Assembly: GCF_963169125.1 (NCBI RefSeq)
Contig: NC_084800.1
Location: forward strand, 142,410,397 to 142,474,396
Reading direction: 5' to 3'
DNA from: Humulus lupulus
Lineage: Eukaryota; Streptophyta; Magnoliopsida; Rosales; Cannabaceae
Length of the DNA stretch: 64,000 nt
Below are positions 16,677 through 63,938 of this stretch, one piece after another (position 1 is the stretch's first letter; each line of letters opens with the position of its first letter). The translations under genes and the position numbers were made by a program. Under the pieces are notes generated by a model. It was not told the DNA's origin. It saw only the letters and a list, made by a program, of their open reading frames with translations, and ran no database searches.

Positions 16677-18828
16677 CTAAGTTTTGGTCTTGGCAATGCT
16701 CCGATGAAGGGCAACGGCGCTCTGCGAAAGCGGAGAGGCAATTGCCTTAGGAAAAAAGAAGGAAGAAAGAAAAAACAGGGCAAGGTGTAATAATCAAAAG
16801 CCATAAAAGGTTGAGGTTAGCTTACCGTTAGGGCCATGCCCAATGAAGACTCCAGCACGCCCACCAGGCTCCTGGTTTCGATGGCCCTGAGCTCCTTCTC
16901 GTTGAACTTGTATATGTGGCTGACGGCGTAGTTCGCCGACTCATACACCGTTCCCCGGAAGGCCTCTGGAATCCTCTCCAAGTCCTGGGGATTGACTGGG
17001 ATGCGCACCTCGGAAGGTACAATCGCCGAAGCCTCGAGCTCCGCCCCTGCATCCCGGACGGGGGCCAGAGCTCGCGGAGGGGGTGGGGGCATGTTGCTCC
17101 CCCCTGCAGCGGGAGGAACAGTTCTGTGACCTGGGCGGTTGGGGGCTTCTCTTTCTCCTTTGCAGGAGACTTAGTTGGGGTTCCGGCGGCTTTTTTCGAT
17201 GTCCGGAGCTTCTTCATTTTTGGCCCAGGGGCCCTGGTTGAGGGGTTCCCCCCGGCGAACGCAGCTCGCAGACTCCCGTCGAGTTGAGACATCTCTTCTG
17301 TCAAAACAAAGACATGGTTAGTACAAAAATTAACAGCCATTAAAAAACAAAGGGGGGAAACAGGAGAAATTCAAGTATGTATATATACTAAAAGGGATCC
17401 GACTCTGGTTCTGGGCTAGATTCTTCTACATATTGCCTAAGCCCCGGAGCTACGACACCCCTCCGAAGTGATGGCCATGACCGAAGATTGGTCCCATACT
17501 CCTCAAATAGGATCGACCTAAAGGCTAGGGTGTTATCTACGACTACGGTACCCCTAGGTCGGCTATCTTGGTAATCCAGCACGAGCTGGTCAACACAGTG
17601 GAGCAGGGTTGTATCCAGGTCCGGATCTCTTCGGTGATGTTGGAAGATCTGTCTGGGATTGAACCTAGCTAGCCGGGGGTCGGCAATGGCTCTATCTAAA
17701 TTCCTAAACATGTAAGGGTTACCTTGGCCAGAAGGACCCGCGGCTGCTCCAGACCGGATCCTCTCCTCGTCCGTTCTCTGGGCGACCTCCAGCGCCCGCT
17801 TCCTGTTCCTCACAAGGGGAACCTCGTCCTCCTCCTCCTCCTCTTCTTCCCCCACGGCCTCCTCCACGATGGTGGGTCTGGTGTCGCGAGCTGGGGGAAG
17901 CCCCCGGGGCCTCCTTAGGTTCAAAGTCTGATTTGGGAAAATCAGCTTGCAGGCCACCATCGTCTCGTCTGTTACGAGCACGCGGTAATCCTTCTCACTG
18001 GGGGGCAAACCCGCCAGTGTCTCGTATTAGGCCCCGAGGGTCAAAGATTTCTCTGTCCTCGCGAAGATAGCTGCAGGATTAATCTAAGTCAGAAAGGGAT
18101 ACAGGAGGAGCTAAACGATACTTAACTTATGAGCTAAGGTTGAAAAGCACTTACGAGGACGATTGAAGTAGTGGAGCTCGCAGTTTCTGAACCCCGTCGA
18201 CATAAAGAATTGATCTTTGAAGTCGTTGGGGGTGGCTGGGCAGCTCGATGACCGCAGCCGTGTTGGGGAATCGGGTTAAGTAATAAAACCCGTCGCCTCG
18301 TCCCCACTGCTCCGGGCTAGCCTTGAGGCAGAAAAAACACAAGATGTCTGCAGGAGTGGGGACCTCCCACTCCTGTTTCAAGAATAAATACCTTAACCCC
18401 GCCAACAGCCGATAAGAGTTGGGGGGGAGCTGGAAGGGGGCCAACTTCACGGAATTGAGGAAGTCAGCAAAATACTGATCCAACGGTTGGAAGGCCCCCG
18501 CTTTAAAATGCTCGTCGCTCCAGGCCGAGAATGCCTCGTCCAGCGGCGCGCAGCTCCGCTCGCCCTCTGCGGGAGGTCGGGCAACCACTGATGCTCTCCC
18601 CAGCCCGATGTTGTGGGAGAGGAATATTTTGTTGATCTTCGTCTGGTCGGTAATCTTTGAGACGATCCTCTCCGCCTCAAAGAATGCGTCAGGAGCCACC
18701 TCGAGCTCCTGTTCCACTGCTGGGCCGAAGTGGGGGATTGGGGATTCGGCCATCACCGCCTTTCCTTTGTCTTGCTGAGAGGCCGAGCTGCCGGCGGTCC
18801 TTTTTGGGGCATTCTTCTTCGGTGCCAT
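16677..18828 (-). pseudogene. Antisense gene of element A (degenerate copy)
   Basis: Same exon layout as the intact copy in element B. Exon 1 18828-18155 (MAPKKNAPKRT start), exon 2 from 18070, exon 3 17297-16826, exon 4 16721-16677, all with GT donors and AG acceptors at homologous places. Defects are an extra base near 18230 (frameshift in exon 1), an in-frame TAA near 18026 where B has CAA, an altered exon 2 end near 17388-17393, a frameshift in exon 3 near 17110, and a deletion of about 430 bp in exon 4 that removes the whole coiled-coil region. The upstream leader intron (19349-18837) is still recognisable. Function of the family is unknown; see the entry for element B. Confidence 0.75.
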
Positions 18829-19580: not shown

Positions 19581-19801
19581 TGTGAAGGGTCACGTGAAGA
19601 GGGCCGTTGGATTGCCATGATGTAGGATCCAAGGCCCTCCACTCGAAAGATGAAACGACGGCTGGGCATAGGCTAGGCCATTTAATGCAGTTCTCGGAAG
19701 ACGTACCGTTACCAACCACGATGTTCCACGTATTCGGCGCCTGCGTAAAATGTGGAATATGAAGAGTTCATGGTGAAGCCTAAAAGCCCCTACTGTGGCC
19801 T

Positions 19802-19817
19802 TACACGACGTCGTGTA
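19802..19817. promoter_or_regulatory. 16 bp perfect palindrome centred on GACGTC, element A
   Basis: TACACGACGTCGTGTA is a perfect palindrome 26 bp before the 3' LTR. Element B has TATATGACGTCATATA at the same place. The ACGT core is typical of plant bZIP sites. It lies upstream of the antisense TATA box and next to the polypurine tract. Confidence 0.45.
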
Positions 19818-19843
19818 CCACGAGCAGAGGCTTGAGGGGCAGA

Positions 19844-22177: not shown

Positions 22178-22182
22178 ATACG

Positions 22183-22952
22183 TGTACGCCCTGGTTTTCC
22201 CACGGGCTGATTAGCAGGTCGAGCCTCGGACTAATCAAGGTTAGTCCGTAAACTTCCCCAGGTCGGAGATCCTGCTTTCCAGGTCGTACCCCCTTAGCTC
22301 GAGGTATCCTCAAGAACTCGCCAAGGCTGCCCAAGACTGGGGGAAGGAGTCCTTAAGGCCGAAGGTTGGGTCAGTGAAGCAGCTCATTGTGCGAGCTTCT
22401 GCTCGTGGATCTCTGACCCTTTGTAAAGTCAACACACGCAAGATAAACGTGCCTATATCTGACATCACGTGTCCGATATCTCCCTGACTTCCCGGGCACG
22501 CATCAGGAACGTGCGCATTCAGACACCCACGGCTGGGTTGGGCCGTGCGGCCCATTATCTCCTTACATACTGATTAGACCACACTTGTGTGTCAGGTTTA
22601 GGAATTAATCATAAATGTTACAGAGTTGATATGACCAATGGTAAGGTCACGTGATGACCTCCCTACCAACTTCCAGGTGCCTTCTCCTATAAATATGGGG
22701 ACCCTGGGAGTTGATAGGGGTTGGAAAAAATAATCTCTGAAGAGCCATATACTTTGTAAACCAAATACCCAGAATACATCAATAATATTGACTAGTGGAG
22801 TAGAAGGATTTTAACCTTTGAACCACTTAAAAACGTGTCTTGAGTCACATAGTTCATTCTCTAAGATTTCATATCTGTGACGGTTCTACTTTCAGCACTA
22901 ATCCCTTTCTCTTCTTCTCTTAATTACCTATTGGCGAAGAACCGCGTCAACA
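22183..22952 (+). repeat. 5' LTR of element B
   Basis: TGTACGCC...GCGTCAACA. TATA box TATAAATA at 22688-22695. AGGTCA-CGTGA-TGACCT dyad near 22643-22659, holding a G-box-like CACGTG, about 30 bp upstream of the TATA box. A second, slightly imperfect dyad around CACGTG near 22454-22480. Confidence 0.95.
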
Positions 22953-23007
22953 GTTTGGTGCTTTCATTGAGAGCTAGTTCGATTAGTGCTGCCACAAACA
23001 TCCAACT

Positions 23008-23133
23008 ATGGTGACCACTCGATCCAGGCATGGCAACAAAACAGAACAACATGATGGGCAGGAGGCCCACCATGTTGCCATCCCTGATGAGCAAATTCCT
23101 GAAGTCCAGCAGAGGCCAGGACGACACTGGTAG
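23008..23133 (+). other. Orphaned original gag start in element B (41 codons, now upstream ORF)
   Basis: ATG 23008 opens with MVTTRSRHGN, the same N terminus as elements A and C, but ends at TAG 23131-23133. Relative to C, about 20 bp are missing between two GGCCA repeats, one of which remains near 23113. The main frame is 22 nt downstream in a different frame. Translation of Gag-Pol would need leaky scanning past this ATG; both ATGs have a purine at -3 and G at +4. Confidence 0.75.
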
Positions 23134-26100
23134 CTCAGCACCCCGGCCACCTAATCCGAACCCGTGTTATTATACTGTGGTGGAGATGGAGAATGCTCAA
23201 CTGAGGAGCCAGTTAGCAACAGCTGGTCGGCAAATCCAGGATATTCTTGCCCGACTACCCCCTCTCACAACCAACGTTAACGTTGGAGAGAGGCAAGGTG
23301 AGGCTCCTAAGTCTCGCCGGAGTAATCGGTCCAGACATAGCCGTTCAGACATGCCTCATGCAGCCAACTCCGCCCCTTCATCACACCATCAAGAGGCAAA
23401 CTTCAGGGAAATGCCTGGGGTCAGACAACAGGAATACAACCGTTCGGTTAGGACGTCAACCCCTAGCTCTCAACCTTCCTCGAGGGCGCCCAGGAGAGCT
23501 CGAGGAAACTCCCGAAGGAGATCTGGGGCGGGCCAGCAGTGCCAGCCCGTCCCAGAAGACCGTCCTGCACCTCGTCCAGCTCGCCCTGTGCAGGACCAGC
23601 AAGCTGGCAGGGCCGAAAGGCCCCCGCCAAATTTGATCCGTACGGACGGAACTAGGATCGCCTCCCCATTCAGACATCCTCCTTCTCCAATCAGATACCC
23701 ATCTCCTCAGCCCATTCGGGACGTCCCAGCCGACGGGAGTAGTAGGAGAGACCCGCCATCGGTTGGGCCTTCCTGGCGCAGCAGGGTGCTAGGGGAAGGA
23801 TCAGATCGTAACCGCCAAAGACGCACTCCAAGCCTATCTAGCAGGAGCCACTGGACCGGTAGTCGCCGGAGTGATCTCTCGGGAGGAGACCTGCGTCAGC
23901 AACTGAGTTCGGCACAAAGTCACCAGACAACGCAGGGAGGCGACCTCCGAGATCACCTCAACTCTCACAAAGACGATCGAACCGAAGATGGTAGGCAGGC
24001 CCGCTCGGCGGGAGTCCGATCCGAAGTACGTAACGGAGGGAATGTCCCAAACAACCTATCTCAAGATAGGAGGGGCAACAACCCACCTAATGTGTACAAT
24101 GGGTCCGGAGCTGTGGAACAGCCCCGTAGTAACCCAGGATCTCAGGACAAAACCCTTGAGCGCCTAACTCAGATGGAGGAGCTGATGAGAAAGCTCCTGA
24201 CAGAAAAAGAAAAAGACGAGTATGACTCTGGCGACGAAATGGAACTCTTCCCCCCCAATATAGCAGCGACGGCCTACCCATCTGGTTTCCGTATGCCCCA
24301 TTTGTCAAAGTTCAACGGGGACGGAGACCCGTCGGATCATTTGGGGATGTTCAACACCCTAATGATGGCTCATAACATTGGCCCGGAGCTGCGTTGCTTG
24401 ATCTTTCCTTCCACACTGATCGGACCTGCCAGTCAGTGGTTCAAGCAAAGTAAAAGACAGTCAATCAGTTCCTGGAAGACTTTTTCAGCTGACTTCAAAA
24501 GGGCATTCCGCGCCTCCCAGGCCGCCCGAATCCAGGCAGACTCCCTAGCTAACGTGAGGCAACAGCCCGGTGAAACGCTAAAAGCCTACTTGAGCAGATT
24601 CGCGAATGTCGCTGCTCGAGCTCGGGACGCTGAAGATAGCTCTAAGCTCATGGCCATGAGAACCGGAATCCTGGTCGGAGGAGACCTGTGGAAAGATATT
24701 CAGAGGAAGGGAGTCGGCTCGGTTAACGAATTCCTTAACAGAGCCCAAGAATGGATAAACTTAGAAGAAGCTGAAGCTTCAGCCGCGGGGACCAGCCAGG
24801 TTCCCGAGAAGCCCGCTGGGGCAGGGACGGAGATCGCGGTGGCAATTCCCGGCGACGTGCAGAACAACCAGCCCGGCGGGGGCAAAATAAAGGGAAACGG
24901 TGAAAACAGCCAGCACGGTCAAAAGAAGAATAAGTCTGTGGATAAATTCAAGCCCGTATTCACAACATATATCGAGCTCACCCAGTCCAGGGAAAATATT
25001 TTCCTGGCCAACGCTGCTCGGGTCCCTTGGAAGAGGCCGGAGCCATTGAAGCACCACAAGGGAAAGAGAGATACTTCGAAGTTCTGCCGTTTCCATAACG
25101 ACATCGGCCACAATACCGACGATTGCAGACATCTAAAAGATGAAATTGAGACTCTCATCCGAGCAGGCCCCTTGGCGCAATATTCACGAAACAGGGTCCC
25201 AGCGGGTCGACCAACTCCAAAAGTCACAGCCAATCAGCCGGGGCCTCGGGTAGATCAGGACGCCCCTCCTCCCTTGATCAAGGGAGAGATATCCACCATC
25301 TCTGGAGGGCCGCATATGGCTGGCACGAGCAGAGGCGCACAGAAGAGGTATGTGAATGAGTTAAAGGCTCATAACGGAGCGGAGTTCGTCCCGGAGCAAC
25401 GTCAGTCCAAACAGCAACGGCTGGAAAAACAACCGATAACTTTCACGGAGGAAGACGCAGGCCATGTCCAATTCCCTCATAACGATCCCTTGGTCGTAGC
25501 AGTCCAGCTCGCCAACTGGAAAGTAAGGAGAGTGTTGGTGGACAATGGGAGCTCGGTGAACCTCCTATTCCGATCCACCTTAGAAAAGATGGGTTTGACT
25601 GTCGCCGAGCTAAAGGCAACCTCGATGATGCTATATGGCTTTTCGGGAGAAGGATCGGCAGCGATAGGGACGATCGAGCTAGTGATCACCCTAGGAGAAG
25701 AGTCTCAGACAGTCTCTAAGCTACTTGAGTTCGTGGTCATTGACTGCTCCGCTGCCTACAACGCCATTTTGGGACGACCTGCGCTCATAGCTTTCGAAGC
25801 CATCACTTCCATTCGACACCTCGCAATGAAGTTCCCTACTTCAACAGGAATCTGTACCATCAAGGGCGATCAGCTCGCTGCCAGGGAATGCTACAGCATT
25901 TCCATGAAGGGAAAGTCTAAACCCGGGCAGCTGGCAATGGCCATTCAGGGCAAGGAGGAATCTCAGGGACCCTTGGCGGCTCCTGAGATTGAAAAACCTC
26001 AGAAGACCGAAGAAGAAAAGATCGCCTTGAGCGAGGACATTGACCCCCGAGTAGGCGAGGATAGATCCGAGCTCCAGGCTATTGAGGAGCTCGAGGAGGT

Positions 26101-29100
26101 GAACATTGACGAACAAAATCCGCCACGAACGGTTAAGCTTGGGAAGAATCTCTGCGACAAGAGAAAGGCGGAGCTGATTGCATTTCTGAAGAATAGCTTG
26201 GACATATTCGCCTGGTCCCACGAGGACATGGTGGGGATTAGTCCGAGTATCATCATGCACACACTCCACCTGGATAAAAGTGTTCCTGCCAAATCCCAAA
26301 AGCAGAGGCGTTTAGGAATGACCCGAGCCGAAGCCCTTGAAGAAGAAGTGGCCCGGCTCAAAAAGTGTGGCTTTATCCGCGAAGCCAAATTTCCAATTTG
26401 GGTCGCTAATCCCGTGCTGGTTCCAAAGCCCAACGGGAAGTGGCGGACCTGTATTGACTTCTCCGACCTGAATAAAGCCTGCCCCAAGGATTGCTTTCCA
26501 TTGCCAAGGATCGATCAGCTGGTGGATGCCACGGCGGGGCACGAGCTCATGTCCTTCATGGACGCGTACTCAGGCTACAATCAGATCGCGATGAACCCGG
26601 CGGACCAGGAGCATACCAGCTTCATGACCCCAACGAATGTCTATTGCTATAAGGTCATGCCATTTGGTCTGAAGAATGCCGGAGCTACCTATCAGAGGCT
26701 AGTAAACAGAATGTTCGCGGACCAGATCGGAAAGAACATGGAGGTGTATGTTGATGACATGCTTGTCAAATCAAAGACTGCCGACAACCATGTTCCCGAC
26801 CTGGAAGAATGTTTTAAAATACTACGAGAGTACGGCATGAGGCTCAATCCTCAGAAATGCACGTTCGGTGTCGCATCAGGGAAATTCCTGGGGTTCATAG
26901 TCAATACCCGAGGAATCGAGGCAAACCCCGACAAAATCAGGTCACTGCTCGAGCTTCCTTCCCCCAGGTTGCGGAAAGACGTCCAAGGCCTCACAGGAAG
27001 GGTGGCAGCACTCAACCAGTTCATTTCCAAATCAACCGACAAATGTTTGCCCTTCTACAACCTGCTCCGAGGAAACAAGAAGTTTAAGTGGACAGTAGAA
27101 TGCGAAAGCGCATTCCTCGACTTGAAGGCGCATCTGGCTGAACCGCCCGTGCTGTCCAAGCCCAGGGCAGGAGAACCTCTTTTCCTCTACATGGCCGTCA
27201 CTGAGGATGCAGTTAGCACCGTGTTAGTACGAGAAGAGGACCAAGTTCAAAAGCCAGTTTACTACATCAGCAAAAGACTCCTCGGAGCAGAGTCGCGATA
27301 CCCACTGATGGAAAAATTGGCGTTTTGCCTAATCACAGCCTCGCGAAAGCTCAGACCATATTTCCAGTCCCACTCGGTGCACGTCATGAACGATCAGCCT
27401 CTAAGGCAGGTGTTGCAAAAGCCTGAAGCATCGGGACGTTTGCTAAAGTGGGCGATCGAACTCAGTCAGTTCGAGATTTTTTATACTCCACGAAATTCCA
27501 TAAAAAGTCAGGCCTTGGCCGACTTCGTGGCGGAGTGCACAGGATTCCAGGAGAATCCATCAGAAGGCTTGCCTCAGGTCGCTTCCCCACATTCGTCGTG
27601 GAAGATCTTCATTGATGGTTCATCTAACGAGAACGGCTCCGGGGCCGGAATCATCCTGATATCCCCCGAGGGACATAGATTCCACTCGGCTCTAAGGTTC
27701 GGGTTCAAGGCGTCTAACAACGAGGCAGAGTACGAGGCTTTATTGGCTGGGCTGAGGGTAGCTAGTGAGCTAAAAGCGAGCTCCGTCCAGTGCTTCAGTG
27801 ACTCCCAGATCGTGGTGAACCAGGTTCTGGGAGAGTATCAGGCGCGAGGACCCAAGATGGCTGCCTATTTGGCAAAAGTAAAAGACGAGCTGGCCACATT
27901 CGGGCGAGGGTCGATCGAACAGATACCTCGGGAGCAGAACGCCAACGCAGATGCTCTCGCCAAACTCGCCACCTCGGGAGAGGCAGAAACCCTGGGGTTG
28001 GTGCCAATAGAATTCTTGGAAAAGCCAAGTATAGAGGGAGATCGGGCAGAGATCGAGATGATTGATATTAGGCCGACCTGGATGACTCCCATTCTTGAGT
28101 ATCTCGTCGAAGGCAGGTTACCCGAAGAGCGTAACGGCGCACGACGAGTCCTTTATCAAGCTCCTAGATATACGCTAGTCGAAGGAGTGTTGTACCAACG
28201 TGGGCACTCCCTACCTCTCCTCCGGTGCGTTCTTCCAAGTGAAGCGAAGGCCATTCTGCAGGAAGTCCACAAAGGATTCTGCGGAGACCACACTGGGGGG
28301 CAAAGCCTAGCCTTAAAGGTTCTCAGGCAAGGTTATTATTGGCCGACTCTGTCCAAAGACTCAATCTCGTACGTGAAAAGGTGCGACAAGTGTCAGCGAT
28401 TCGCTGTGGTTGCCCGAGCTCCTCCGGTCGAGCTAAAAATGATCTCGGCTCCTTGGCCATTTGCCGTTTGGGGAATAGATCTAGTGGGCGCCCTGCCCAC
28501 CGGGAAGGGCGGGGTCCGTTACGCCGTGGTAGCCATTGACTACTTCACCAAGTGGGCCGAAGCAGAGCCATTGGCGACAATAACATCGAAGAAAGTACTC
28601 GACTTTGTGGTGAAAAGCATCATTTGTCGATTTGGCCTTCCTAAGAAGATCGTCTCCGACAACGGCACCCAATTTGACAGCGATCTGTTCACCGAATTTT
28701 GTGAAAGGCACGGAATTGTGAAAAGTTTCTCGTCCGTGGCCTATCCCCAGGCGAACGGCCAGGTCGAGGCTGTGAACAAAACTCTAAAGACAAGCCTCAA
28801 GAAGAGGCTAGACGAGGCAAAAGGGGTCTGGCCAGACCAGCTCCCCCAGGTCCTGTGGGCGTACCGGACCTCGCATCGAACTCCCACGGGTCACACTCCT
28901 TTCTCCCTAACCTTTGGGAGTGAAGCAGTCCTCCCCGTGGAGGTTAAAGTTATGTCGCATAGAGTCCAATCCTACGACCAAGACCGGAACCACGAACTCC
29001 TGTGCCATTCCCTAGACCTGGTTGATGAAAAGCGGGAGGATTCGCAACTCCAACTCGCCCATTATCAGCAAAAGATCACTCGCTACTTCAACACCAAGGT

Positions 29101-29314
29101 CAAAAAACGCGTCTTTAGCGTTGGCGATTTGGTCCTAAGGAGAGTTTTCCTGGCCGGAAAAGATCCCAAAGATGGGGTTTTGGGACCAAACTGGGAAGGA
29201 CCATACCAGGTCATCGAAGTCATCAAGGAGGGAACTTATAAGTTAGCTCGACTTGATGGAGGGGCGATCCCGCGGACTTGGAATGCCATCCACTTAAAGA
29301 AATACTATCAATGA
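23030..29314 (+). CDS. gag-pol: Gag-Pol polyprotein of element B (2,094 aa)
   Basis: Single open frame. Approximate residues: Arg/Pro-rich N-terminal Gag 1-380; Gag core 420-520 (FNGDGDPSDHLGMFNTLMMA); zinc-finger-like FCRFHNDIGHNTDDC near 686; aspartic protease VLVDNGSSVNLLF near 834; RT 1080-1290 with YVDDM near 1240; RNase H 1380-1500; a second archaeal-type RNase H from about 1524 (FIDGSSNENGSGAG), diagnostic of the Tat clade; integrase zinc-binding region near 1747, catalytic core with GIDLVGALP (1814) and VSDNGTQFDSD (1874), and C-terminal NWEGPYQV near 2047. There is no stop or frameshift between Gag and Pol. Start caveat: the family start is the ATG at 23008, but a ~20 bp deletion near 23120 puts it out of frame (TAG at 23131). 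This frame must start at 23030, giving a replaced N terminus. Confidence 0.93.
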   Translation: MATKQNNMMGRRPTMLPSLMSKFLKSSRGQDDTGSSAPRPPNPNPCYYTVVEMENAQLRSQLATAGRQIQDILARLPPLTTNVNVGERQGEAPKSRRSNRSRHSRSDMPHAANSAPSSHHQEANFREMPGVRQQEYNRSVRTSTPSSQPSSRAPRRARGNSRRRSGAGQQCQPVPEDRPAPRPARPVQDQQAGRAERPPPNLIRTDGTRIASPFRHPPSPIRYPSPQPIRDVPADGSSRRDPPSVGPSWRSRVLGEGSDRNRQRRTPSLSSRSHWTGSRRSDLSGGDLRQQLSSAQSHQTTQGGDLRDHLNSHKDDRTEDGRQARSAGVRSEVRNGGNVPNNLSQDRRGNNPPNVYNGSGAVEQPRSNPGSQDKTLERLTQMEELMRKLLTEKEKDEYDSGDEMELFPPNIAATAYPSGFRMPHLSKFNGDGDPSDHLGMFNTLMMAHNIGPELRCLIFPSTLIGPASQWFKQSKRQSISSWKTFSADFKRAFRASQAARIQADSLANVRQQPGETLKAYLSRFANVAARARDAEDSSKLMAMRTGILVGGDLWKDIQRKGVGSVNEFLNRAQEWINLEEAEASAAGTSQVPEKPAGAGTEIAVAIPGDVQNNQPGGGKIKGNGENSQHGQKKNKSVDKFKPVFTTYIELTQSRENIFLANAARVPWKRPEPLKHHKGKRDTSKFCRFHNDIGHNTDDCRHLKDEIETLIRAGPLAQYSRNRVPAGRPTPKVTANQPGPRVDQDAPPPLIKGEISTISGGPHMAGTSRGAQKRYVNELKAHNGAEFVPEQRQSKQQRLEKQPITFTEEDAGHVQFPHNDPLVVAVQLANWKVRRVLVDNGSSVNLLFRSTLEKMGLTVAELKATSMMLYGFSGEGSAAIGTIELVITLGEESQTVSKLLEFVVIDCSAAYNAILGRPALIAFEAITSIRHLAMKFPTSTGICTIKGDQLAARECYSISMKGKSKPGQLAMAIQGKEESQGPLAAPEIEKPQKTEEEKIALSEDIDPRVGEDRSELQAIEELEEVNIDEQNPPRTVKLGKNLCDKRKAELIAFLKNSLDIFAWSHEDMVGISPSIIMHTLHLDKSVPAKSQKQRRLGMTRAEALEEEVARLKKCGFIREAKFPIWVANPVLVPKPNGKWRTCIDFSDLNKACPKDCFPLPRIDQLVDATAGHELMSFMDAYSGYNQIAMNPADQEHTSFMTPTNVYCYKVMPFGLKNAGATYQRLVNRMFADQIGKNMEVYVDDMLVKSKTADNHVPDLEECFKILREYGMRLNPQKCTFGVASGKFLGFIVNTRGIEANPDKIRSLLELPSPRLRKDVQGLTGRVAALNQFISKSTDKCLPFYNLLRGNKKFKWTVECESAFLDLKAHLAEPPVLSKPRAGEPLFLYMAVTEDAVSTVLVREEDQVQKPVYYISKRLLGAESRYPLMEKLAFCLITASRKLRPYFQSHSVHVMNDQPLRQVLQKPEASGRLLKWAIELSQFEIFYTPRNSIKSQALADFVAECTGFQENPSEGLPQVASPHSSWKIFIDGSSNENGSGAGIILISPEGHRFHSALRFGFKASNNEAEYEALLAGLRVASELKASSVQCFSDSQIVVNQVLGEYQARGPKMAAYLAKVKDELATFGRGSIEQIPREQNANADALAKLATSGEAETLGLVPIEFLEKPSIEGDRAEIEMIDIRPTWMTPILEYLVEGRLPEERNGARRVLYQAPRYTLVEGVLYQRGHSLPLLRCVLPSEAKAILQEVHKGFCGDHTGGQSLALKVLRQGYYWPTLSKDSISYVKRCDKCQRFAVVARAPPVELKMISAPWPFAVWGIDLVGALPTGKGGVRYAVVAIDYFTKWAEAEPLATITSKKVLDFVVKSIICRFGLPKKIVSDNGTQFDSDLFTEFCERHGIVKSFSSVAYPQANGQVEAVNKTLKTSLKKRLDEAKGVWPDQLPQVLWAYRTSHRTPTGHTPFSLTFGSEAVLPVEVKVMSHRVQSYDQDRNHELLCHSLDLVDEKREDSQLQLAHYQQKITRYFNTKVKKRVFSVGDLVLRRVFLAGKDPKDGVLGPNWEGPYQVIEVIKEGTYKLARLDGGAIPRTWNAIHLKKYYQ

Positions 29315-29451
29315 TCCACTTGTAAGGCCTGGAGGGCCACTTTCTATGTATAAATAAGAATCGAATGTTTCTTTTTATTTGCAAGTGTGATTTTAAAAGT
29401 AACCACGAAAGACCCTTTCCCAGTTACTTGGGGGGCATATGGTACCTGGAT

Positions 29452-30100
29452 ATAACCAGGTCTCCTTAATGACTTAGGTGTTGACTCTTATCTATTGGCA
29501 AGGGTTAGCGCGAACTAAGTCCTATCCTGGTTTTAACCAGGTCATAAAACTTAGAAGTTAACTTAAATTTATTGATCGTGGTTCTTCTTAAAGAGCTCGG
29601 GATATGGATAAAAGTTAACACGAACTAAGTTTTCAAAATAAGTTCCTGGTTTTAACCGGGTCATAAAACTTAGAAGTTAACTTAAATTTATTGATCGTGG
29701 TTCTTCTTAAAGAGCTCGGGATATGGATAAAAGTTAACACGAACTAAGTTTTCAAAATAAGTTCTTGGTTTTAACCGGGTCATAAAACTTAGAAGTTAAC
29801 TTAAATTTATTGATCGTGGTTCTTCTTAAAGAGCTCGGGATATGGGTAAAAGTTAACATGAACTAAGTTTTCAAAATAAGTTCCTGGTTTTAACCGGGTC
29901 ATAAAACTTAGAAGTTAACTTAAATTTATTGATCGTGGTTCTTCTTAAAGAGCTCAGGATATGGATAAAAAGTTAACACGAACTAAGTTTTCAAAATAAG
30001 GTCATGGTTTTAACCATGTCATAAGACTTGGAAGTTAACTTAAGTTTATTGGTCGTGGCTCTTTCTTAAAGAGCTCGGGATATAAATAACGGTTAGCATG
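29452..30100. repeat. ~119 bp tandem repeat array of element B (about 6 copies)
   Basis: Units start near 29452, 29526 (the first is a shortened unit), 29645, 29764, 29883 and 30003. Core motifs are CCTGGTTTTAACCGGG, TCATAAAACTTAGAAGTTAA, AAAGAGCTCGGGATATGG and AACACGAACTAAGTTTTC. Same position and period as in elements A and C. Confidence 0.92.
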
Positions 30101-30158
30101 AACTAAGCTTATATAAAAATATATATATATAAGTTAAGATTGCCAAGTAAATCGTCTC

Positions 30159-30174
30159 GAGGTGAAAACACCTC
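30159..30174. terminator. Conserved hairpin 3' of the antisense gene, element B
   Basis: GAGGTG-AAAA-CACCTC, perfect 6 bp stem, 55 bp beyond the antisense stop codon and after the repeat array in the sense direction. The homologous hairpin in A has a different loop but the same stem. Confidence 0.35.
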
Positions 30175-30229
30175 ATGAAAAGGTTACAAAGAAAATAAAA
30201 ATAATTAAAAATGCTCAAAGAGAAGTGCC

Positions 30230-32820
30230 CTAAGCCCCATCAGCTGGTCCTTTGGAGGTCGCAGTCTCATCCTGCTCCACCGCGCCAGAGGCCTCCCCAG
30301 TCTCCGAGGGCGGTGCCTCTTTGTTTAGGCGGGCTTGGAGCTTCGGCAGCAAAAAAGCCCAGAGGTCCGGCGGCATAAAAGAGAAGTCAGCATCCGGGTT
30401 ATGGGCCCAGCAGTGATAGAACAGGTCCTGCATGGACTGCTCCGAGATGGCCCACTCGGCTTCCAAGGCGGCCTCCAGGGCAGTCTGGGCCTCGGTCTTC
30501 GCTGCCTCGAGATCTGTTCGCGAAGTGGCAAGGGTGGTTTTAAGTTCTCGGTTCTCGGAGCGGCTCCTCTCTAGCTCGGCCTTCGAAGCCGCCAGCGCAT
30601 CTTTCGCCACCTGAGCTTCCTGAAGGGCGGCCTGGCGCTCAGCCTCCATCTCCTTGAGCTGAGCCTTGGTCCTAGCGATACCTCGATGAGCGGCAGCAAT
30701 GCCCTGCAAGAAAGGAAGGATAAGTTGGCTAAGTGGAAAAACAAGGCATTGTGTAAGTGTTACAGCTTTAAAAGAGTGGGGCAGATTACCGTTAGGGTCA
30801 TGTCCAACGAAGACTCTATGACTCGGACGGGACTCGTTGCTTCGATAGCCCGGAGATCCTTCTCTTTGAGCTTGTAGAAGCGGCCGACGGCATAGCTCGC
30901 CGACTCATACACCGTCCCCCGGAATGCCTCTGAGATCTTTCCCAGATCCTGGGGGTCGACCGGGATGCGTACGTCCAGAGTCCCGACCTCCAGTACCACG
31001 TTCTGGGTGGCTGGTGGAGACTGCTGGGGCGGCGGGGGCATGTGTCCTGCTCGGGCAGCAGGGAGGATTGCCCCCCCGGCCTGGGACAGCGGGGTTTTTT
31101 CCTTCTCCTTAGCCGGCGATTTGGTGGAGGTCCTGGGCGCACTCTTGGACTCTCGGAGCCTTTTCAACCTTGGCCCTGCTGGGAGATTCCCGCCGAAGAC
31201 TACACCCCGCAGATTACCCCCGGGCTGAGACATCTCTTCTGCCAAAAACAAAAACATGGTTATTACAAGTTAGCAATCATGCAGAGGTTAAAAGCAAGAA
31301 AGTATACGAATATTAAGGGAGCCCTACCCCCCGAGCTGGAAGAGCCTAGGACAATTATCTCACGAACTGGCGCGGGTTCTAGGTCCGGCTCTGACTCGGG
31401 GCTGGACTCTTCTACATACTGTCTAAACCCCGGAGCATAGACACCCCTTTGAAGTGATGACCATGTGCGTAAGTTGGTCCCATACTCCTCAAAAAGGATC
31501 GACCTAAAAGCTAGGGTGTTATCTACTACTACGGTACCCCTAGGCCGGCTCTCTTGGTGATCCAGCACGAGCCGGTCAACACAATGGAGCAGGAGTGTAT
31601 TCAGGTCCGGGTCTCTCCCGTGACGATGGACGATCTGCCTAGGATTGAACCTAACCAGCCGGGGGTCTGCAGTGGCCCTATCTACATTCTTAAACAAATA
31701 AGGGTTACCTTGGTCGGAAGGACCCGCGGCTGCTCCGGTTTGGATCCTCTCCTCGTCCATCCCCTGAGCGACCTCCAAGGTCCTTTTTCTATTCCTCACG
31801 AGCGGAACTTCAGCCGCCTCGTCCTCCTCGTCTTCTTCTGCCGCGACCTCCTCCACTGTGATAGGCCTGGTGTCGCGGGCTGGGGGCGGCCCCCGAGGCC
31901 TCTTCAGGTTTAGAGTCTGGTTTGGGAAGATCAATTTGCAGAACACCATCGTCTCGTCCGTCACGAGCGCGCGGTAGTCCTTTTCACTGGGGGGCAAGCC
32001 CACCAATGTTTCATATTGACCCCCGAGGGTCGCAGACTTCTCGGTCCTCGCGTAGATGGCTGCAAGGTTGGGTTGGAATCAGAATGGAATACGGGAGCTA
32101 AAATTAAACAACACTTAAAAGGCGAGCTAGGGTCAGGGTTCACTTACGAGGACGATTGAAGTAGTGGTGCTCACAGTTCCGGAACCCAGTTGACATGAAG
32201 AACTGGTCCTTGAAGTCATTTGGATGGCTTGGCAGCTCGATGACCGCCGTCGTATTAGGAAAACGAGTTAAATAGTAAAACCCGTCACCTCGCCCCCGCT
32301 GATCCGGGCTGGCTTTGAGGCAAAAGAAATATAAAATATCAGCAGGAGTAGGGACCTCCCACTCCTGCTTCTTGAACAAGTACCTCAACCCCGCCAGCAG
32401 ACGGTAGGAGTTGGGGGGGAGCTGGAATGGGGCCAACCCCACATAGTTCAGGAAATCAACGAAATACTGATCCAGGGGAAGGAAGGCCCCTGCCTTGAAG
32501 TGTTCACCACTCCAGGCCGCAAACGATTCATCGAGCGGAGTGCAGCTCCGCTCGCCCTCCGCAGCAGGCCGGGCAATCACTGAGGCTTTCCCCAGGGGGA
32601 TGTTGTGGATGAGGAAGAGTTTGTTGATCTTCGCTTGGTCGATTATCTTTGAGACGATTCTCTCCGCCTCAAAGAATGCGTCGGGGGCCACCTCGACCTG
32701 CTTCTCCACGGCCGGCCCGAAGTGGGGGATCGGCGAGCTTGGCATCACCGCCTTTCCTTTCTCTTGATGGGAGATCGAGCTTCCCACGTTCTTCTGAGGC
32801 AGGTTCCTTTTTGGAGCCAT
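30230..32820 (-). CDS. Antisense accessory gene of element B, four coding exons, 775 aa, function unknown
   Basis: Exons 32820-32148, 32059-31328, 31238-30790 and 30703-30230. Introns of 88, 89 and 86 bp all have GT...AG ends (donors GTAAGT, GTAGGG, GTAATC; acceptors TTGCAG, TTGGCAG, TTGCAG). The joined length is 2,328 nt with no internal stop. Exon 1 (residues 1-224) starts MAPKRNLPQKN and contains a globular part (LAPFQLPPNSYRLLAGLRYL, GDGFYYLTRFPN). It resembles the plant 'putative gypsy-type transposon' family (Pfam Transposase_28), by memory of the family, not a search. Exon 2 has an acidic run. Exon 3 has a basic KSPAKEKEK stretch, a Pro-rich linker and EAFRGTVYESASYAV. Exon 4 is a strong coiled coil (EMEAERQAALQEAQVAKDAL onward) with an acidic C terminus. 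Likely nuclear or particle-associated, but no catalytic motif is evident. Silene Retand carries comparable antisense ORFs. Confidence 0.7.
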
Positions 32821-32828
32821 CTGGTCAC

Positions 32829-33560
32829 CTATCGAACAAAAGAAAACACTTTAGAAAAGGCGACCCAAGCAGAAGGACGAAGCAATTATTATTTACACGA
32901 GCTGAGGTAAGCCCAGCCCGTGGAGAGTGGAACCACGCGGTTCAATGAACACGCGCATATGCTCCCAACAGATCCCAGGTTACTCGGAATTCGTGTGTCA
33001 AGGGGCTCAGAGTAAAAATTTGCCTTGGGGGGGAAGTTCCAACAGGCAGAACGATGCAAAACCGCTTTTGAAGCGTATCCCCTAAGCTACCCGGTTTTGC
33101 ACCCAAAATTCCTAAAAATCCTAACCAGAAATTGTTCCTGAAGAAGCATCTTGAAACCCATACTCTAAGGCGATTTCCTACAACAAGTGTGCCCTAGCCT
33201 AAAAGGGGCTGTCACCCTCCTACCCACGCAACCCCGAGAACCCTTGCATGCGACTACAGTAAAAAATTTCACCTAGGCTACAGTGGCATGTTTTCAAAAT
33301 GAACAGGGTCAGAAAACTTACAGTATATGGTTGGATGGAAAACGTGAGTGTTGCGTTGGTAGGAGCCTCATCGGTGCAGTAGCTTCCAAAGCTTTGGAGA
33401 AACTCGTGCGCCTAAGCTTCGAGAACAAGGAAAATGGTGGCAGTAGAGCCGAGGGTTTCGTCCTTCTGAAAGTCAGAGAAGGAAGAAGGAAAGAGATTTG
33501 TGAAATATTTGAATGAAGGGGTGGTCCGTGCGTAGGATGGCCACCCCCTTTTTATATAAG
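32829..33560 (-). promoter_or_regulatory. Promoter and 5' leader intron of the antisense gene, element B
   Basis: Minus strand: TATA box CTTATATAAA (33560-33551), a leader exon of about 200 bp, a GTAAG donor (intron begins 33321), and an acceptor GTTCGATAG ending at 32829. The exon restarts at GTGACCAG directly before the ATG at 32820. The 493 bp intron and both splice sites have homologues in element A (18837-19349), so the leader is probably spliced. Confidence 0.5.
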
Positions 33561-33783
33561 GGAAATATCACGTGAAGAAGGCTCTTGGATGGCCCTAGTG
33601 AGGGATCCGAGGCCTTCCACTCGAAATATGAAACAACGGCTGGACAATAGGCTAGGCCATTAAATGCGGTTCTCGTAAAACGTACCGTCACCACCCACGG
33701 CGTTCCACGTATCAGACGCCTGCACAAAAAGTGGAATGTGAAGGGTTGTGGGGAAGTCTAAAAGCCCCTACTGTGGTCTTCTA

Positions 33784-33799
33784 TATATGACGTCATATA
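33784..33799. promoter_or_regulatory. 16 bp perfect palindrome centred on TGACGTCA, element B
   Basis: TATATGACGTCATATA, 26 bp before the 3' LTR and about 230 bp upstream of the antisense TATA box. TGACGTCA is a classic plant bZIP (TGA/CRE-type) site. Element A has the same palindrome with paired changes at two symmetric positions. Confidence 0.5.
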
Positions 33800-33825
33800 C
33801 CACGAGCAGGAGCTTGGGGGGCAGA

Positions 33826-34595
33826 TGTACGCCCTGGTTTTCCCACGGGCTGATTAGCAGGTCGAGCCTCGGACTAATCAAGGTTAGTCCGTAAACTTCC
33901 CCAGGTCGGAGATCCTGCTTTCCAGGTTGTACCCCCTTAGCTCGAGGTATCCTCAAGAACTCGCCAAGGCTGCCCAAGACTGGGGGAAGGAGTCCTTAAG
34001 GCCGAAGGTTGGGTCAGTGAAGCAGCTCGTTGTGCGAGCTTCTGCTCGTGGATCTCTGACCCTTTGTAAAGTCAACACACGCAAGATAAATGTGCCTATA
34101 TCTGACATCACGTGTCCGATATCTCCCTGACTTCCCGGGCACGCATCAGGAACGTGCGCATTCAGACACCCACGGCTGGGTTGGGCCGTGCGGCCCATTA
34201 TCTCCTTACATACTGATTAGACCACACTTGTGTGTCAGGTTTAGGAATTAATCATAAATGTTACAGAGTTGATATGACCAATGGTAAGGTCACGTGATGA
34301 CCTCCCTACCAACTTCCAGGTGCCTTCTCCTATAAATATGGGGACCCTGGGAGTTGATAGGGGTTGGAAAAAATAATCTCTGAAGAGCCATATACTTTGT
34401 AAACCAAATACCCAGAATACATCAATAATATTGACTAGTGGAGTAGAAGGATTTTAACCTTTGAACCACTTAAAAACGTGTCTTGAGTCACATAGTTCAT
34501 TCTCTAAGATTTCATATCTGTGATGGTTCTACTTTCAGCACTAATCCCTTTCTCTTCTTCTCTTAATTACCTGTTGGCGAAGAACCGCGTCAACA
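33826..34595 (+). repeat. 3' LTR of element B
   Basis: 770 bp, about 5 differences from the 5' LTR. Preceded by AGCTTGGGGGGCAGA (polypurine tract) and followed by the target duplication ATACG at 34596-34600. Confidence 0.95.
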
Positions 34596-34600
34596 ATACG

Positions 34601-36697: not shown

Positions 36698-38164
36698 ATG
36701 GGGAAGGAAAAGATCCATATTAATATTGTTGTCATTGGCCATGTCGATTCTGGGAAATCGACCACAACCGGTCATTTAATCTACAAGCTTGGAGGAATTG
36801 ATAAGCGTGTGATCGAAAGGTTTGAGAAGGAGGCTGCTGAGATGAACAAGAGATCATTCAAGTATGCCTGGGTGCTTGACAAGCTCAAGGCAGAGCGTGA
36901 GCGTGGTATTACCATTGACATTGCCCTCTGGAAGTTTGAGACCACCAAGTATTACTGTACTGTCATTGATGCTCCTGGACATCGTGATTTCATCAAGAAC
37001 ATGATTACGGGAACTTCACAGGCTGATTGTGCTGTGCTCATTATTGACTCCACAACTGGTGGTTTTGAGGCTGGTATTTCCAAGGATGGACAGACCCGAG
37101 AGCATGCTCTTCTCGCCTTCACTCTTGGTGTCAAGCAAATGATTTGTTGTTGCAACAAGGTAGATAATAATCTTAATAAATAAGGTTTTGTATTATATTC
37201 TTGGACTGATGATTTTTTGTTATCGGTGTGATTATATTTCTGCAAATGAGGTTATTAATTTGTTTTATTGTTTCCTTTACAGATGGATGCCACCACCCCA
37301 AAGTACTCAAAGGCAAGGTATGATGAAATCGTGAAGGAAGTTTCTTCATACCTGAAGAAGGTTGGTTACAACCCAGATAAGATTGCATTCATTCCCATCT
37401 CTGGGTTTGAGGGTGATAACATGATTGAGAGATCCACTAACCTTGACTGGTACAAGGGCCCGACTCTTCTTGATGCTCTTGACCAGATCCTAGAACCTAA
37501 GAGACCCTCAGACAAACCTCTTCGTCTCCCACTTCAGGATGTTTACAAGATTGGAGGCATTGGAACTGTGCCAGTTGGACGTGTGGAAACTGGTGTCATC
37601 AAGCCTGGAATGGTTGTAACTTTTGGTCCCACTGGACTGACCACTGAAGTCAAGTCTGTTGAGATGCACCACGAGGCACTTCAGGAGGCTCTTCCTGGTG
37701 ACAATGTTGGCTTTAACGTGAAGAATGTTGCTGTCAAGGATCTCAAGCGCGGTTTTGTCGCCTCAAACTCTAAGGATGATCCTGCCAGGGAGGCAGCCAA
37801 CTTCACCTCCCAAGTTATCATCATGAACCATCCTGGCCAGATTGGCAATGGTTACGCCCCAGTTCTTGATTGTCATACCTCTCACATTGCTGTTAAGTTT
37901 TCTGAGATCCTGACCAAGATTGACCGACGGTCTGGTAAGGAGATTGAGAAGGAGCCTAAATTTTTGAAGAATGGTGATGCTGGGTTTGTTAAGATGATTC
38001 CCACTAAGCCTATGGTTGTGGAAACTTTCTCAGAGTACCCCCCACTTGGTCGTTTTGCTGTCAGGGACATGCGACAAACTGTGGCCGTCGGAGTCATCAA
38101 GAGTGTGGAGAAGAAGGATCCTTCTGGGGCCAAGGTTACCAAATCCGCTGCCAAGAAGAAGTGA
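36698..38164 (+). CDS. EEF1A: Elongation factor 1-alpha (eEF1A), 447 aa, two coding exons
   Basis: Exon 36698-37159, intron 37160-37282 (GTAGAT...TTTACAG), exon 37283-38164. The protein is the GTPase that delivers aminoacyl-tRNA to the ribosomal A site in the cytosol. G1 GHVDSGKS (residues 14-21), G3 DAPGH (91-95), and G4 NKMD (153-156), which the intron splits between the K and M codons, are all intact. The switch-I region [10 protein letters not shown] and the C-terminal Lys-rich tail KSAAKKK are typical of plants. Length equals the usual plant 447-449 aa. No stop, frameshift or missing catalytic residue is seen, so this is a functional-looking copy, one member of what is usually a small gene family. 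It is transcribed towards the TMEM70-like gene (convergent, ~0.8 kb apart). Confidence 0.97.
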
Positions 38165-38957: not shown

Positions 38958-40460
38958 TCACAAATTTTTGAATCCCGACTCTTGAGTTGCTTTTGGAGTC
39001 AATCTTGCTAACAAGGCCTTGTTATGACAGTGATCAGCGTCAACAAAATAGAAGTTCCCATTGGCTTTAAACGTCACAAAAGGCCGATTGGTCTCTGGAA
39101 GCCGAATATCAGAAAACTTGATAGTCTTCGGAATGTAAGTTGCTAACCAGGACAACATCTCCACCTCGAAGGTGTCAGAACCGGGCTTCCATCTCAGCTT
39201 GTGAACGTAAGGACTCACAAACCAGTGAAGGGCCGCAGTGGTTGTAGCACTGAGAAATATGACAGAAGAAGCCACTGCACCCTTAAGGATCACATTCATA
39301 TCAGGTGATGTCATGAAGGTTACAACTGGGCCTAAAGACACAGAGAGGCAGCAGGTCGAAAGTGATAAAAGCTTCACTTTCTTGATGGTAGAAGAGATCG
39401 GTCCATAGTAGACAATCCCAGAGTCTTTTTCGTTTTCCTCACCTTCTGCTACTTTTTTAGGGCCAATGCTGAGCTTTCCATTGTCTTCAGCTGTAGAGGC
39501 TCGTGAAGCCCATCTTTTCTGGAAAGCATTGATCTGGATACAGGGATTGAAAGTTGGTCCAGTGTTCAAGCGATTTGTCCATACTCCAGGACCAGACCTG
39601 CAAAGATGACTCCCTGGTACAAGAGAGTATAATGTCAAAACCAAGAGTAACCAAGTTGCCCACATAAAAATATGCACTTGTGAAATTTAAATAGACAGAA
39701 CCAAGTGAAATAGATTGGTAGAAGTAAGAGCATGCTTAAAACACAATCTATACAAGGAAAGAAATGCTCTTGGGTTATAATTCAATACCAAGTAATATAG
39801 CTAGAGAAACAAAGGGTAATTTTCAGAAAGTACGGTTACAGAGAGTTCGACCATCCAATTCGTGCACAATTTGAAGAATTTTTTTTTGAGAAAGAAACGA
39901 AAAATGCCATTGTAGAGTGATTAGCATTATATTGAACTTACATTGATAATTGTTTAAAAAAAATGGAAAACAACACATCAGATTTCAGAGAAACATTTCC
40001 TCGTTAAATTGAATCACGATAATCAAGCTCTGAAATGATAATTTGGCACATAAATTGCAAAGCATAAGTTGAGATAATCTACACATCTAGCTCAGCCATA
40101 ATCCCCAATTTCAATCCATTATTCTAGTTTTTTTAGAAGCCGAGATTCACAAAATTTCGGCCGCCAGAAACAACCAATTTCCAATACCCAACATATAAGT
40201 TAGCAATTATCATCATGAAACTAAACACATGGAATTGGTTTCTGCGAAAATTGGGACCGAGAAAGATGGACCAAGGATTAAATATTTGAAATGAACAACC
40301 CGACAAATTAAATCAGAGTTTACAAAAGCAGAGATAACAGTCGATAAAGAGAGAGCGTGCGTGTCTGAATAGTGAATCAGAAGAAACCTGAGGAGTATGA
40401 GGATGATCGAAGGCCCCTGAACTGTGATCTCAGAAGCCGAAAGAGAGCCGCTCTTCCCAT
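38958..40460 (-). CDS. TMEM70-like mitochondrial inner-membrane protein, 242 aa, two exons
   Basis: Exon 1 40460-40388 and exon 2 39613-38958 join in frame across a 774 bp intron (GTTTCTTC...TTGTACCAG). Exon 1 encodes MGRAALFRLLRSQFRGLRSS, Arg/Ser-rich without acidic residues: a mitochondrial targeting peptide. Exon 2 carries VYYGPISSTIKKVKLLSLST, two hydrophobic segments forming a hairpin (around LSVSLGPVVTFMTS and VASSVIFLSATTTAALHWFV), then a soluble C-terminal part with YVHKLRW and FYFVDADHCHNK. This order (YxG motif, two-helix hairpin, matrix-facing tail) matches the TMEM70 family, whose animal members assist ATP synthase c-ring and complex I assembly. The plant role is inferred. A reading frame continuing upstream from 39613 to 39677 is intron. 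Confidence 0.78.
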
Positions 40461-62926: not shown

Positions 62927-63938
62927 CTAAGCCCCGTCAGTCGGCCCCTTGGAGGTCGCAGTCTCATCCAGCTCCGCCGCACCAGAGGCTTCCCCAGTCT
63001 CCGAAGGCGGCACCTCTTTGTCAAAGCGGGCTTGGAACTTCACCAACAAGCGCGCCCAGAGACTCGACGGCATGAAGGAGAAGTCAGCCTCCGGGTTGTG
63101 GGCCCAGCAACGATAGAAAAGTTCCTGCATGGACTGTTCCGAGGTGGCCCGTTCAGCTTCAAGGGCAGCCTGGGCCTCGGTCTTCGCTGCCTCGAGGTCT
63201 GTTCGCGAGGTAGCAAGGGATGTCTCAAGCTCTTTGACCTTTGAGCGGGTCCTCTCTAACTCGGCCTTCGAGGTCGCCAGCGCATCTTTCGCCGCCTGAG
63301 CCTCCTGAAGGGCGGCCTGATGACCAGCCCTCATCTCCTCGAGCTGAGCTCTGGTCCTGGTGATGCCTCGGTGTACGGCAGCGATGCCCTGCGAGAATGG
63401 AAAGACAAATTGGCTAAGTAGAAAAATAAGGCGGTGTGTGAGGGCTAAAGCCTTAAAAGAATGGGGCAGCTTACCGTTAGGGTCATGTCCATCGATGACT
63501 CTATTACGTGGACCGGGCTCAGTGTCTCAATATCCCGGAGCTCCTTCTCTTTGAACTTATAGAAATGGTTGACGGCATAATTCGCTGACTCATACACCGT
63601 CCCCCGGAAGGCTTCTGGGATCTTTTCCAGAGCCTGGGGGTCGACCGTGATGCGTACGCCAGGGGCCACTGCAGCCGGGGGCCCGACCTCCATTCGCACG
63701 TCCTGGATGGCTGATGGAGATCGTTGGGGCAGCGGAGGCATGTGTCCTGCTCCGCTAGCCAGAAGAGTTGCCCCCCCGACCTGCGATGGTGGGGTTTTTT
63801 CCTTCTCCTTTGCCGGAGATTTGGTGGAGCCCCCAGCCGTGCTCTTGGACCCTCGAAGCCTTTTCAATCTTGGCCCTGCTGGGGGATTCCCCCCGAAGTC
63901 TATGCCCCGCAAACTATCCTCGGGCTGAGACATCTCTT
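62927..63938 (-). CDS. Antisense accessory gene of element C, exons 3 and 4 (partial)
   Basis: Exon 3 63938-63475 and exon 4 63388-62927, joined across an 86 bp intron (GTAAGC...TCTCGCAG). Both are open and in frame. Compared with element B, exon 3 is 15 bp longer and exon 4 12 bp shorter, both multiples of three. Exon 3 has MSQPEDSLRG, the basic KSPAKEKEK and EAFRGTVYESANYAV. Exon 4 has the coiled coil (RTRSKVKELETSLATSRTDL) and the MQELFYRCWAHNPEADFSF motif. Exons 1-2 and the promoter lie beyond 64000. Function unknown, as for element B. Confidence 0.65.

Follow-up and report, generated by a model that had tools for sequence, protein, structure and literature searches.

In a 64,000-nucleotide window of the hop genome (Humulus lupulus, NCBI RefSeq assembly GCF_963169125.1, contig NC_084800.1, positions 142,410,397 to 142,474,396 of the forward strand), we analyzed three related long terminal repeat (LTR) retrotransposons, A (8336-20600), B (22183-34595), and C (54947 to beyond the window end). 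Element B very probably carries, on the strand opposite to its gag-pol, a spliced antisense gene with a constrained protein sequence, and we have little doubt that a spliced coding gene exists on that strand. We propose that this is an accessory gene of a Tat/Retand-type element whose product may act as a nuclear regulator of its own family; as a whole, we give this proposal a probability of roughly 0.4.

A four-exon gene model on the antisense strand of B

Four exons on the minus strand of B (673, 732, 449, and 474 nt) join into 2328 nt, corresponding to 775 codons and a TAG stop. The predicted gene consists of the following features, in the direction of its transcription.

33547..33560, minus strand: TATA-like sequence CTTATATAAAAAGG, with ATATAAAAA aligned to it in A
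33322..33525, minus strand: predicted leader exon, its start guessed from the TATA position; fast evolving
32829..33321, minus strand: predicted leader intron, 493 bp, from its splice sites, both common to A
32148..32820, minus strand: exon 1, ATG at 32820; TRP28-type domain, with a PF04195 match at residues 106-151
32060..32147, minus strand: intron 1, 88 bp, phase 1, GTAAGT..TTGCAG; both sites present in A
31328..32059, minus strand: exon 2; acidic stretch, RNRKR, and a conserved middle part without known fold
31239..31327, minus strand: intron 2, 89 bp, phase 1, GTAGGG..TGGCAG; acceptor present in A and C, donor deleted in A
30790..31238, minus strand: exon 3; KRLR-containing basic stretch, Pro-rich stretch, and a conserved C part
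30704..30789, minus strand: intron 3, 86 bp, phase 0, GTAATC..TTGCAG; both sites present in A and C
30230..30703, minus strand: exon 4, stop TAG; coiled coil and C-terminal part

This model agrees exactly with a preliminary description of the locus, which had given four exons, three GT/AG introns of 86-89 bp, and 775 uninterrupted codons; the TATA box and the leader intron of ~0.5 kb that it had placed ahead of the coding exons correspond to the TATA-like stretch at 33560-33547 and to the 493-bp intron predicted from its sites. Retention of intron 1, 2, or 3 would in each case close the frame, with stops at 32142-32140, 31265-31263, and 30762-30760, respectively, and the other five frames of the joined exons contain 14-29 stops each in B (codons aligned to A). 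Once spliced as predicted, the leader of B (33371-33322 joined to 32828-32821) would contain one upstream ATG, which reads ACG in A and is therefore not conserved.

Relatives of the gene are present in the two neighboring elements.

16677..18828, minus strand: broken relative in A, with a 1-nt shift, premature stops, the intron 2 donor deleted, and exon 4 mostly missing
62927..63938, minus strand: exons 3-4 in C; the remainder lies outside the window

The dinucleotide GT or AG is kept at 7 of 8 splice sites in A (leader intron included), and all three coding splice sites of C that fall inside the window are present. The recurrence of splice sites in both copies, as described earlier, is thus borne out apart from the intron 2 donor of A, which lies within a deletion. 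The 1-nt shift of A is in exon 1, and its 641 aligned codons contain two premature stops (a third stop codon aligns to B's own stop); 107 of the 474 bases of exon 4 could be aligned, at 58.9% identity. Copy C has 302 aligned codons in exons 3-4, none of them a premature stop, and its differences from B (exon 3, +15 bp; exon 4, -12 bp; a single gap each) are in-frame, as had been stated. The gag-pol of C contains 9 stops in 2085 aligned codons, indicating that C is a decaying copy; that of A contains 7 stops.

The joined frame is under purifying selection

The ratio of nonsynonymous to synonymous divergence (dN/dS) was obtained by Nei-Gojobori counting on aligned codons, with gapped codons dropped and bootstrap 95% intervals, from three copies: B, which is intact; A, which is broken; and C, which is partial and has stops in gag-pol. 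Between A and B, the joined frame gave a dN of 0.160 and a dS of 0.835, a ratio of 0.19 (0.15-0.24) over 641 codons, with values of 0.08 (0.05-0.13) for exon 1, 0.22 for exon 2, and 0.30 for exon 3. The B-C comparison, which covers exons 3-4 only, gave 0.34 (0.24-0.49) over 302 codons and 0.25 for exon 4. In exon 1, the A-B changes numbered 91 at codon position 3, 24 at position 1, and 19 at position 2. Control ratios were 0.95-1.57 for shifted forward frames and 1.07-1.48 for two of the three reverse frames. These data show that the joined antisense frame is under purifying selection. The preliminary description had called for dN/dS across many copies; the three copies named above answer this call in part.

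By the identical method, gag-pol as a whole gave 0.09 (A-B) and 0.15 (B-C), RT (reverse transcriptase) 0.03 and 0.08, the Gag capsid 0.07 and 0.12, and the Gag N part 0.28 and 0.25. Judging from the A-B values, exon 1 is constrained about like the Gag capsid, and exons 2-3 are constrained like the Gag N part.

Sequence evidence for probable splicing of the exons

A search with the full-length protein, in which the 7995 candidates sharing most words were scored and further relatives may have been missed, returned a sole match: LOC133807277 (P0001), a predicted hop protein of 532 residues (E = 4.1e-113) that is 48% identical to the B protein across residues 262-761, with gaps. When placed on the window, its blocks 1-201, 222-371, and 374-532 correspond to exons 2, 3, and 4, with ends no more than 13 nt from the junctions, and the protein is continuous across junctions 2-3 and 3-4.

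Residues 1-281 used as a query matched 16 proteins from ENA contigs, nine on exon 1 (P0002-P0010) and seven on exon 2 (P0011-P0017). Donor 1 is reached by three exon-1 open reading frames (ORFs), all of which read RPRK over the donor; past it, P0002 ends immediately, and P0004 and P0007 diverge. Five exon-2 ORFs reach donor 2, each with SSSSGG followed by K or R, and beyond this donor the residues are still similar among P0012-P0014 and between P0017 and B, with no similarity break. These short public ORFs run into introns, indicating that they derive from unspliced sequence. One of them, P0010, combines a bacterial-lipoprotein-like start (by eye) with a TRP28-type end and probably represents a chimeric contig. 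Further copies were sought by profile scans of viral contigs with the exon 1 and exon 2 alignments, which yielded no relatives (52 and 114 pattern matches), and by querying with residues 40-300 alone, where none of 2390 candidates matched at E ≤ 1.

Copy A conserves codons 225-262 of exon 2, with substitutions at 3, 5, and 11 of 38 sites by codon position. The first in-frame ATG of B in this exon is codon 262, and the conservation ahead of it points to entry from exon 1. The three coding introns diverge at the neutral rate: pooled, their A-B Kimura two-parameter (K2P) distance is 0.55 (0.42-0.73), compared with 0.60 at the 4-fold sites of gag-pol and 0.48 at those of exons 1-2, where 4-fold sites were counted only in codons with the first two bases equal. 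The B-C distance of intron 3 is 0.22, compared with 0.24 at gag-pol 4-fold sites.

Features of the predicted protein

The antisense protein of B has a predicted mass of ~86 kDa and a pI of 5.8. Residues 106-151 match Transposase_28 (PF04195) with 22.8 bits (E 1.1e-4), below the curated cut-off of 26.2 bits, so that the hidden Markov model check suggested in the preliminary description gave a match, yet one under the threshold. Among five exon-1 relatives scanned, only P0004, which is 81% identical to exon 1 of B or close to it, exceeded the cut-off (29.7 bits), the rest scoring 15.5-25.4 bits. We therefore call the domain TRP28-type rather than a member of the family.

Residues 284-310 are acidic (net -9), and residues 469-520 are basic (net +6) and include KRLR. 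This K[KR]xR motif of exon 3 reads KRLR in B and, by eye, KKLR in A, KRLR in C, and KKPR in the hop protein. Residues 619-705 show an excess of heptad a/d positions matched by 0.0005 of shuffles, and the hop protein shows likewise an excess (0.0025). The previously described architecture of a globular N part, acidic linker, basic stretch, and C-terminal coiled coil was thus recovered as a TRP28-type N part followed by acidic, basic, and coiled-coil segments. The seven Pfam families with listed matches at E ≤ 1 include no bZIP model.

Layout and classification of element B

The remaining features of B are as follows.

22183..22952, plus strand: 5' LTR, 770 bp; 99.35% identity to 33826-34595, with five mismatches
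23030..29314, plus strand: gag-pol, a single open frame of 2094 residues
29525..30107, no strand assigned: tandem array found by Tandem Repeats Finder (TRF), 4.9 copies of a 119-bp unit, in the interval towards which pol and the antisense gene converge
33826..34595, plus strand: 3' LTR, partner of 22183..22952

Element B is flanked by a 5-bp target duplication, ATACG, at 22178-22182 and 34596-34600; together with the five mismatches between its 770-bp LTRs, this upholds for B the earlier designation as young. The LTRs of A (757 bp) have 24 mismatches, and a 5-bp target duplication is likewise present. The gag-pol of B encodes, in order, Gag, a protease-like domain, RT, RNase H, a second RNase H-like domain, and integrase. 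Pfam models Retrotrans_gag, RVT_1, RT_RNaseH, RVT_3/RNase_H, and rve were matched, and a match to Asp_protease_2 lay under its Pfam cut-off. The sequence RVT_1, RT_RNaseH, RVT_3/RNase_H, rve is the gypsy order of RT, RNase H, and integrase with a second RNase H-like domain, and the latter is a feature of Tat elements. The region between pol and the 3' LTR is long (4511 bp between 29314 and 33826) and holds the TRP28-type exon 1, as in the Retand layout. Based on this layout and the TRP28-type exon rather than on an RT tree, B is probably a Tat/Retand-type Ty3/gypsy element.

Slowly evolving noncoding modules

Noncoding blocks of the element differ widely in their A-B K2P distances. Slow blocks are the tandem array (0.14), the 3' half of the leader intron (32829-33079; 0.19), the stretch from the TATA to the LTR (0.20), and the LTR (0.25); the 5' half of the leader intron (33080-33321) is intermediate (0.35), and introns 1-3 (0.55), the leader exon (0.67), and gag-pol 4-fold sites (0.60) are fast. 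Transversions alone divide the noncoding blocks into the same slow and fast groups. The array, the LTR, and the leader intron 3' half (29525-30107, 22183-22952, 33826-34595, and 32829-33079) have an A-B divergence 2-4-fold below that of introns 1-3 and 4-fold sites. The B-C distances are 0.12 for the array and 0.08 for the LTR, compared with 0.24 at gag-pol 4-fold sites. The slow blocks are candidates for target or control sites.

An exchange of 3' ends between families could be considered as the cause of the slow LTR and repeats. We disfavor this explanation because slow and fast blocks alternate: the repeats are slow, the introns fast, the leader intron 3' half slow, the leader exon fast, and the promoter and LTR slow.

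Shared words of 8, 9, 10, and 12 bases were counted between the tandem unit and each of the leader intron, the LTR, and the TATA-to-LTR stretch, and between the LTR and the leader intron, against 200 dinucleotide shuffles each, giving 16 tests, uncorrected. Words of 8-10 bases common to the tandem unit and the leader intron gave p of 0.035-0.045; those of 9 and 10 bases were AT-rich. For the LTR and the leader intron, p was 0.055-0.235 (8-10 bases), and the other word tests gave p ≥ 0.29.

Three further candidates were rejected. AACCGGGT or its complement as a target motif occurs three times in the array and once in the leader intron and is absent from the LTR, the TATA-to-LTR stretch, gag-pol, and the antisense gene, which is too thin a basis. 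The leader intron as an RNA structure gave fold z-scores of -0.29 and 0.21 (60 shuffles). For the leader intron 3' half as coding sequence, mismatches by phase were 13, 11, and 18 of 83-84 each, and at least one stop is present in all six frames.

Proposed role of the antisense gene and alternative explanations

In the mechanism that we propose, host Pol II would start at an internal TATA promoter close to the 3' LTR and transcribe the antisense gene in the direction of pol, and only the antisense mRNA would lose the 0.5-kb leader intron and the three short introns. Copying of the sense genomic RNA would leave the introns intact because they are not in splicing orientation there. An intron-bearing gene persists in a retrotransposon only if its introns survive in the genomic RNA, and antisense placement ensures this survival. 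This argument, put forward in the preliminary description, is sound and is the converse of the intron-in-reporter assays described in PMC12786077. The ~86-kDa product would enter the nucleus, multimerize via its C-terminal coiled coil, and act in trans on members of its own family, recognizing the slow modules, namely the LTR/promoter, the leader intron, and the 119-bp repeats. As an outcome, transcription of the element might be raised or tuned, or silencing might be countered. The basic motif in four relatives and the reported nuclear product of Grande (PMC7264820) suggest nuclear entry. The Gag-interacting role raised in the preliminary description found no support in these data. A regulatory or anti-silencing role is possible, as that description had noted, and we hold a nuclear regulatory role of the protein only tentatively, at somewhat less than even odds.

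Several observations weigh against this proposal. The spliced gene is predicted solely from the gene model, the hop protein, and selection; the hop protein contains 14 and 2 additional residues directly before junction 2-3, and junction 1-2 is crossed by none of the proteins found, LOC133807277 included. Apart from the small and partly decayed sample of copies, coding constraint is weak in exon 4 between A and B (dN/dS 0.48, 0.19-1.25; 33 codons) and in exon 3 between B and C (0.47, 0.29-0.79). The third reverse frame also gave low ratios, 0.30 (A-B) and 0.51 (B-C), yet it contains 24 and 10 stops in B, and its ratio is probably low owing to silent positions that it shares with the real frame. 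No DNA-binding domain is among the Pfam hits of the antisense protein, and AlphaFold2 modeling of exon 1 (from 10 sequences) and exon 2 (from 9) gave mean predicted local distance difference test (pLDDT) scores of 34.5 and 33.9; these models were unusable and were set aside, so that the structure prediction suggested earlier gave no interpretable model. The slowness of the noncoding modules can also stem from roles in promoter activity, packaging, or replication of the element. Finally, the tandem unit and the LTR share no significant word, and the word tests leave no target motif in hand.

Alternatively, the protein of the spliced gene could serve the replication cycle, acting with Gag or the preintegration complex and aiding nuclear import, integration, or particle assembly. 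We consider this less probable, although a serious alternative. The constraint on exon 1 resembles that on the Gag capsid (A-B dN/dS 0.08 and 0.07), a coiled coil and basic stretches are present, and such a role is considered for antisense ORFs in PMC7264820. Pfam, however, links the antisense protein neither to Gag nor to integrase or a known import factor, and with its own promoter on the opposite strand the amount of protein would not be matched to that of Gag. The present evidence does not separate this role from a regulatory one.

It is also conceivable, if quite improbable, that the antisense transcript rather than the protein matters, its RNA pairing with the genomic RNA and triggering or titrating silencing. 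Convergent transcription would yield overlapping RNA, roles of double-stranded RNA are proposed in PMC7264820, and control by antisense RNA is described for Ty1 in PMC12786077. Nevertheless, it is the amino acids that are under selection, as the A-B counts by codon position in exon 1 show, and the introns drift like neutral sites; an RNA role would thus be at most additional.

Very improbable, in our view, is that the exons are separate antisense ORFs that are independently translated and never spliced together. Antisense ORFs are treated individually in PMC11963269, each exon lies inside an open frame of 159-247 codons, and similarity continues past donor 2 (P0012-P0014; P0017 and B). Against this, the hop protein LOC133807277 unites exons 2, 3, and 4; the codons of exon 2 ahead of its first ATG are conserved; past donor 1, P0002 stops and P0004 and P0007 diverge; and the introns change at the neutral rate while the exons keep their amino acids. 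Least credible of all is a captured host gene fragment carried as passive cargo, for which the introns would be expected as in a host gene, since the gene is present in A, B, and C despite gag-pol 4-fold distances of 0.60 (A-B) and 0.24 (B-C), has a homologue in hop, and is under purifying selection, and PMC11963269 reports TRP28 only in flowering plants, without similarity outside transposable elements.

Extending the regulatory proposal, the scattered Retand antisense ORFs of flowering plants might be exons of one ancient intron-containing regulatory gene, encoding a nuclear coiled-coil TRP28 protein that recognizes the slowly evolving repeats, leader intron, and LTR of its own family and shields it from silencing. 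Such a gene would be a retrotransposon counterpart of VANC whose introns are safe from loss by retrotransposition. We regard this extension as distinctly unlikely.

Relation to known systems

Antisense TRP28 ORFs are already known as a mark of Retand elements. They were found in 97% of Retand clusters in a survey of 617 assemblies (Vicient 2025, PMC11963269), so that the earlier statement that antisense ORFs are known in Silene Retand is correct, although their range is far wider than Silene. The survey considered ORFs of at least 600 bp and lists Smc matches as further antisense ORF domains; in its available text, "intron" and "splicing" do not occur, and "spliced" and "exon" occur in the reference list only. 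The TRP28 elements described there resemble B as Ty3/gypsy elements with a long region between pol and the 3' LTR, one gag-pol ORF, repeats by pol, and an antisense TRP28 ORF. The matches of some of their antisense ORFs to Smc models parallel the coiled coil in exon 4 of B. In contrast, their repeat units are 8-100 bp, compared with 119 bp in B, and separate ORFs are reported there instead of the single four-exon gene predicted in B.

Maize Grande gene23 can be likened to the gene of B by its description in PMC7264820, as an antisense gene between pol and the 3' LTR with its own promoter and a nuclear protein; the same source urges attention to antisense and spliced transcripts. HTLV-1 HBZ and other spliced antisense retroviral genes (PMC10186651) also lie in an LTR element and have a nuclear product acting on transcription, as the product of B may do. 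Unlike B, with its internal TATA-like site and three coding introns, HBZ encodes a bZIP factor expressed from the 3' LTR; in B, the TATA-like site lies outside the LTR and the listed Pfam families include no bZIP model, and we regard the likeness as an analogy without homology. The anti-silencing VANC proteins of the VANDAL DNA transposons (PMC5735166) offer a model of an element-encoded protein acting on tandem-repeated noncoding motifs of its own family. In such a system the protein binds a short repeated motif of its own noncoding DNA and brings about loss of methylation; among the stretches of B compared, the word search gave no convincing shared motif. VANDALs, however, belong to another element class, and VANC target repeats vary considerably between relatives, whereas the repeats of B evolve slowly.

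Among the open-literature matches listed, no antisense gene with introns was described for a plant LTR element, although Gomez-Orte 2013 and Kejnovsky 2006 may describe introns. What appears to be new is a single predicted gene joining a TRP28-type exon, an acidic/basic middle part, and a coiled-coil exon, along with noncoding modules slower than neutral sites. If the TRP28 and Smc-like antisense ORFs that the survey reports separately are exons of one spliced gene, the protein to be cloned and tested has so far been truncated. With the model, cDNA can be tested at exact junctions, and the slow noncoding modules offer candidate target sites, so that the function of Retand antisense genes becomes directly testable.

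Neighboring sequences in the window

Just downstream of B, at 36698-38164, lies a host elongation factor 1-alpha gene in two frames, probably two exons. A frame at 38958-39677 on the minus strand matches the TMEM70/TMEM186/TMEM223 family and is likely a host gene. Inverted repeats ~40 kb apart (1229-2115 and 44208-45094, 887 nt, 91%; 3247-3465 and 42892-43110, 219 nt, 85%) probably belong to another repeat family. Direct repeats are present at 41496-41795 and 42114-42413 (99%) and at 48755-49054 and 53602-53901 (91%), and are perhaps LTRs of other elements.

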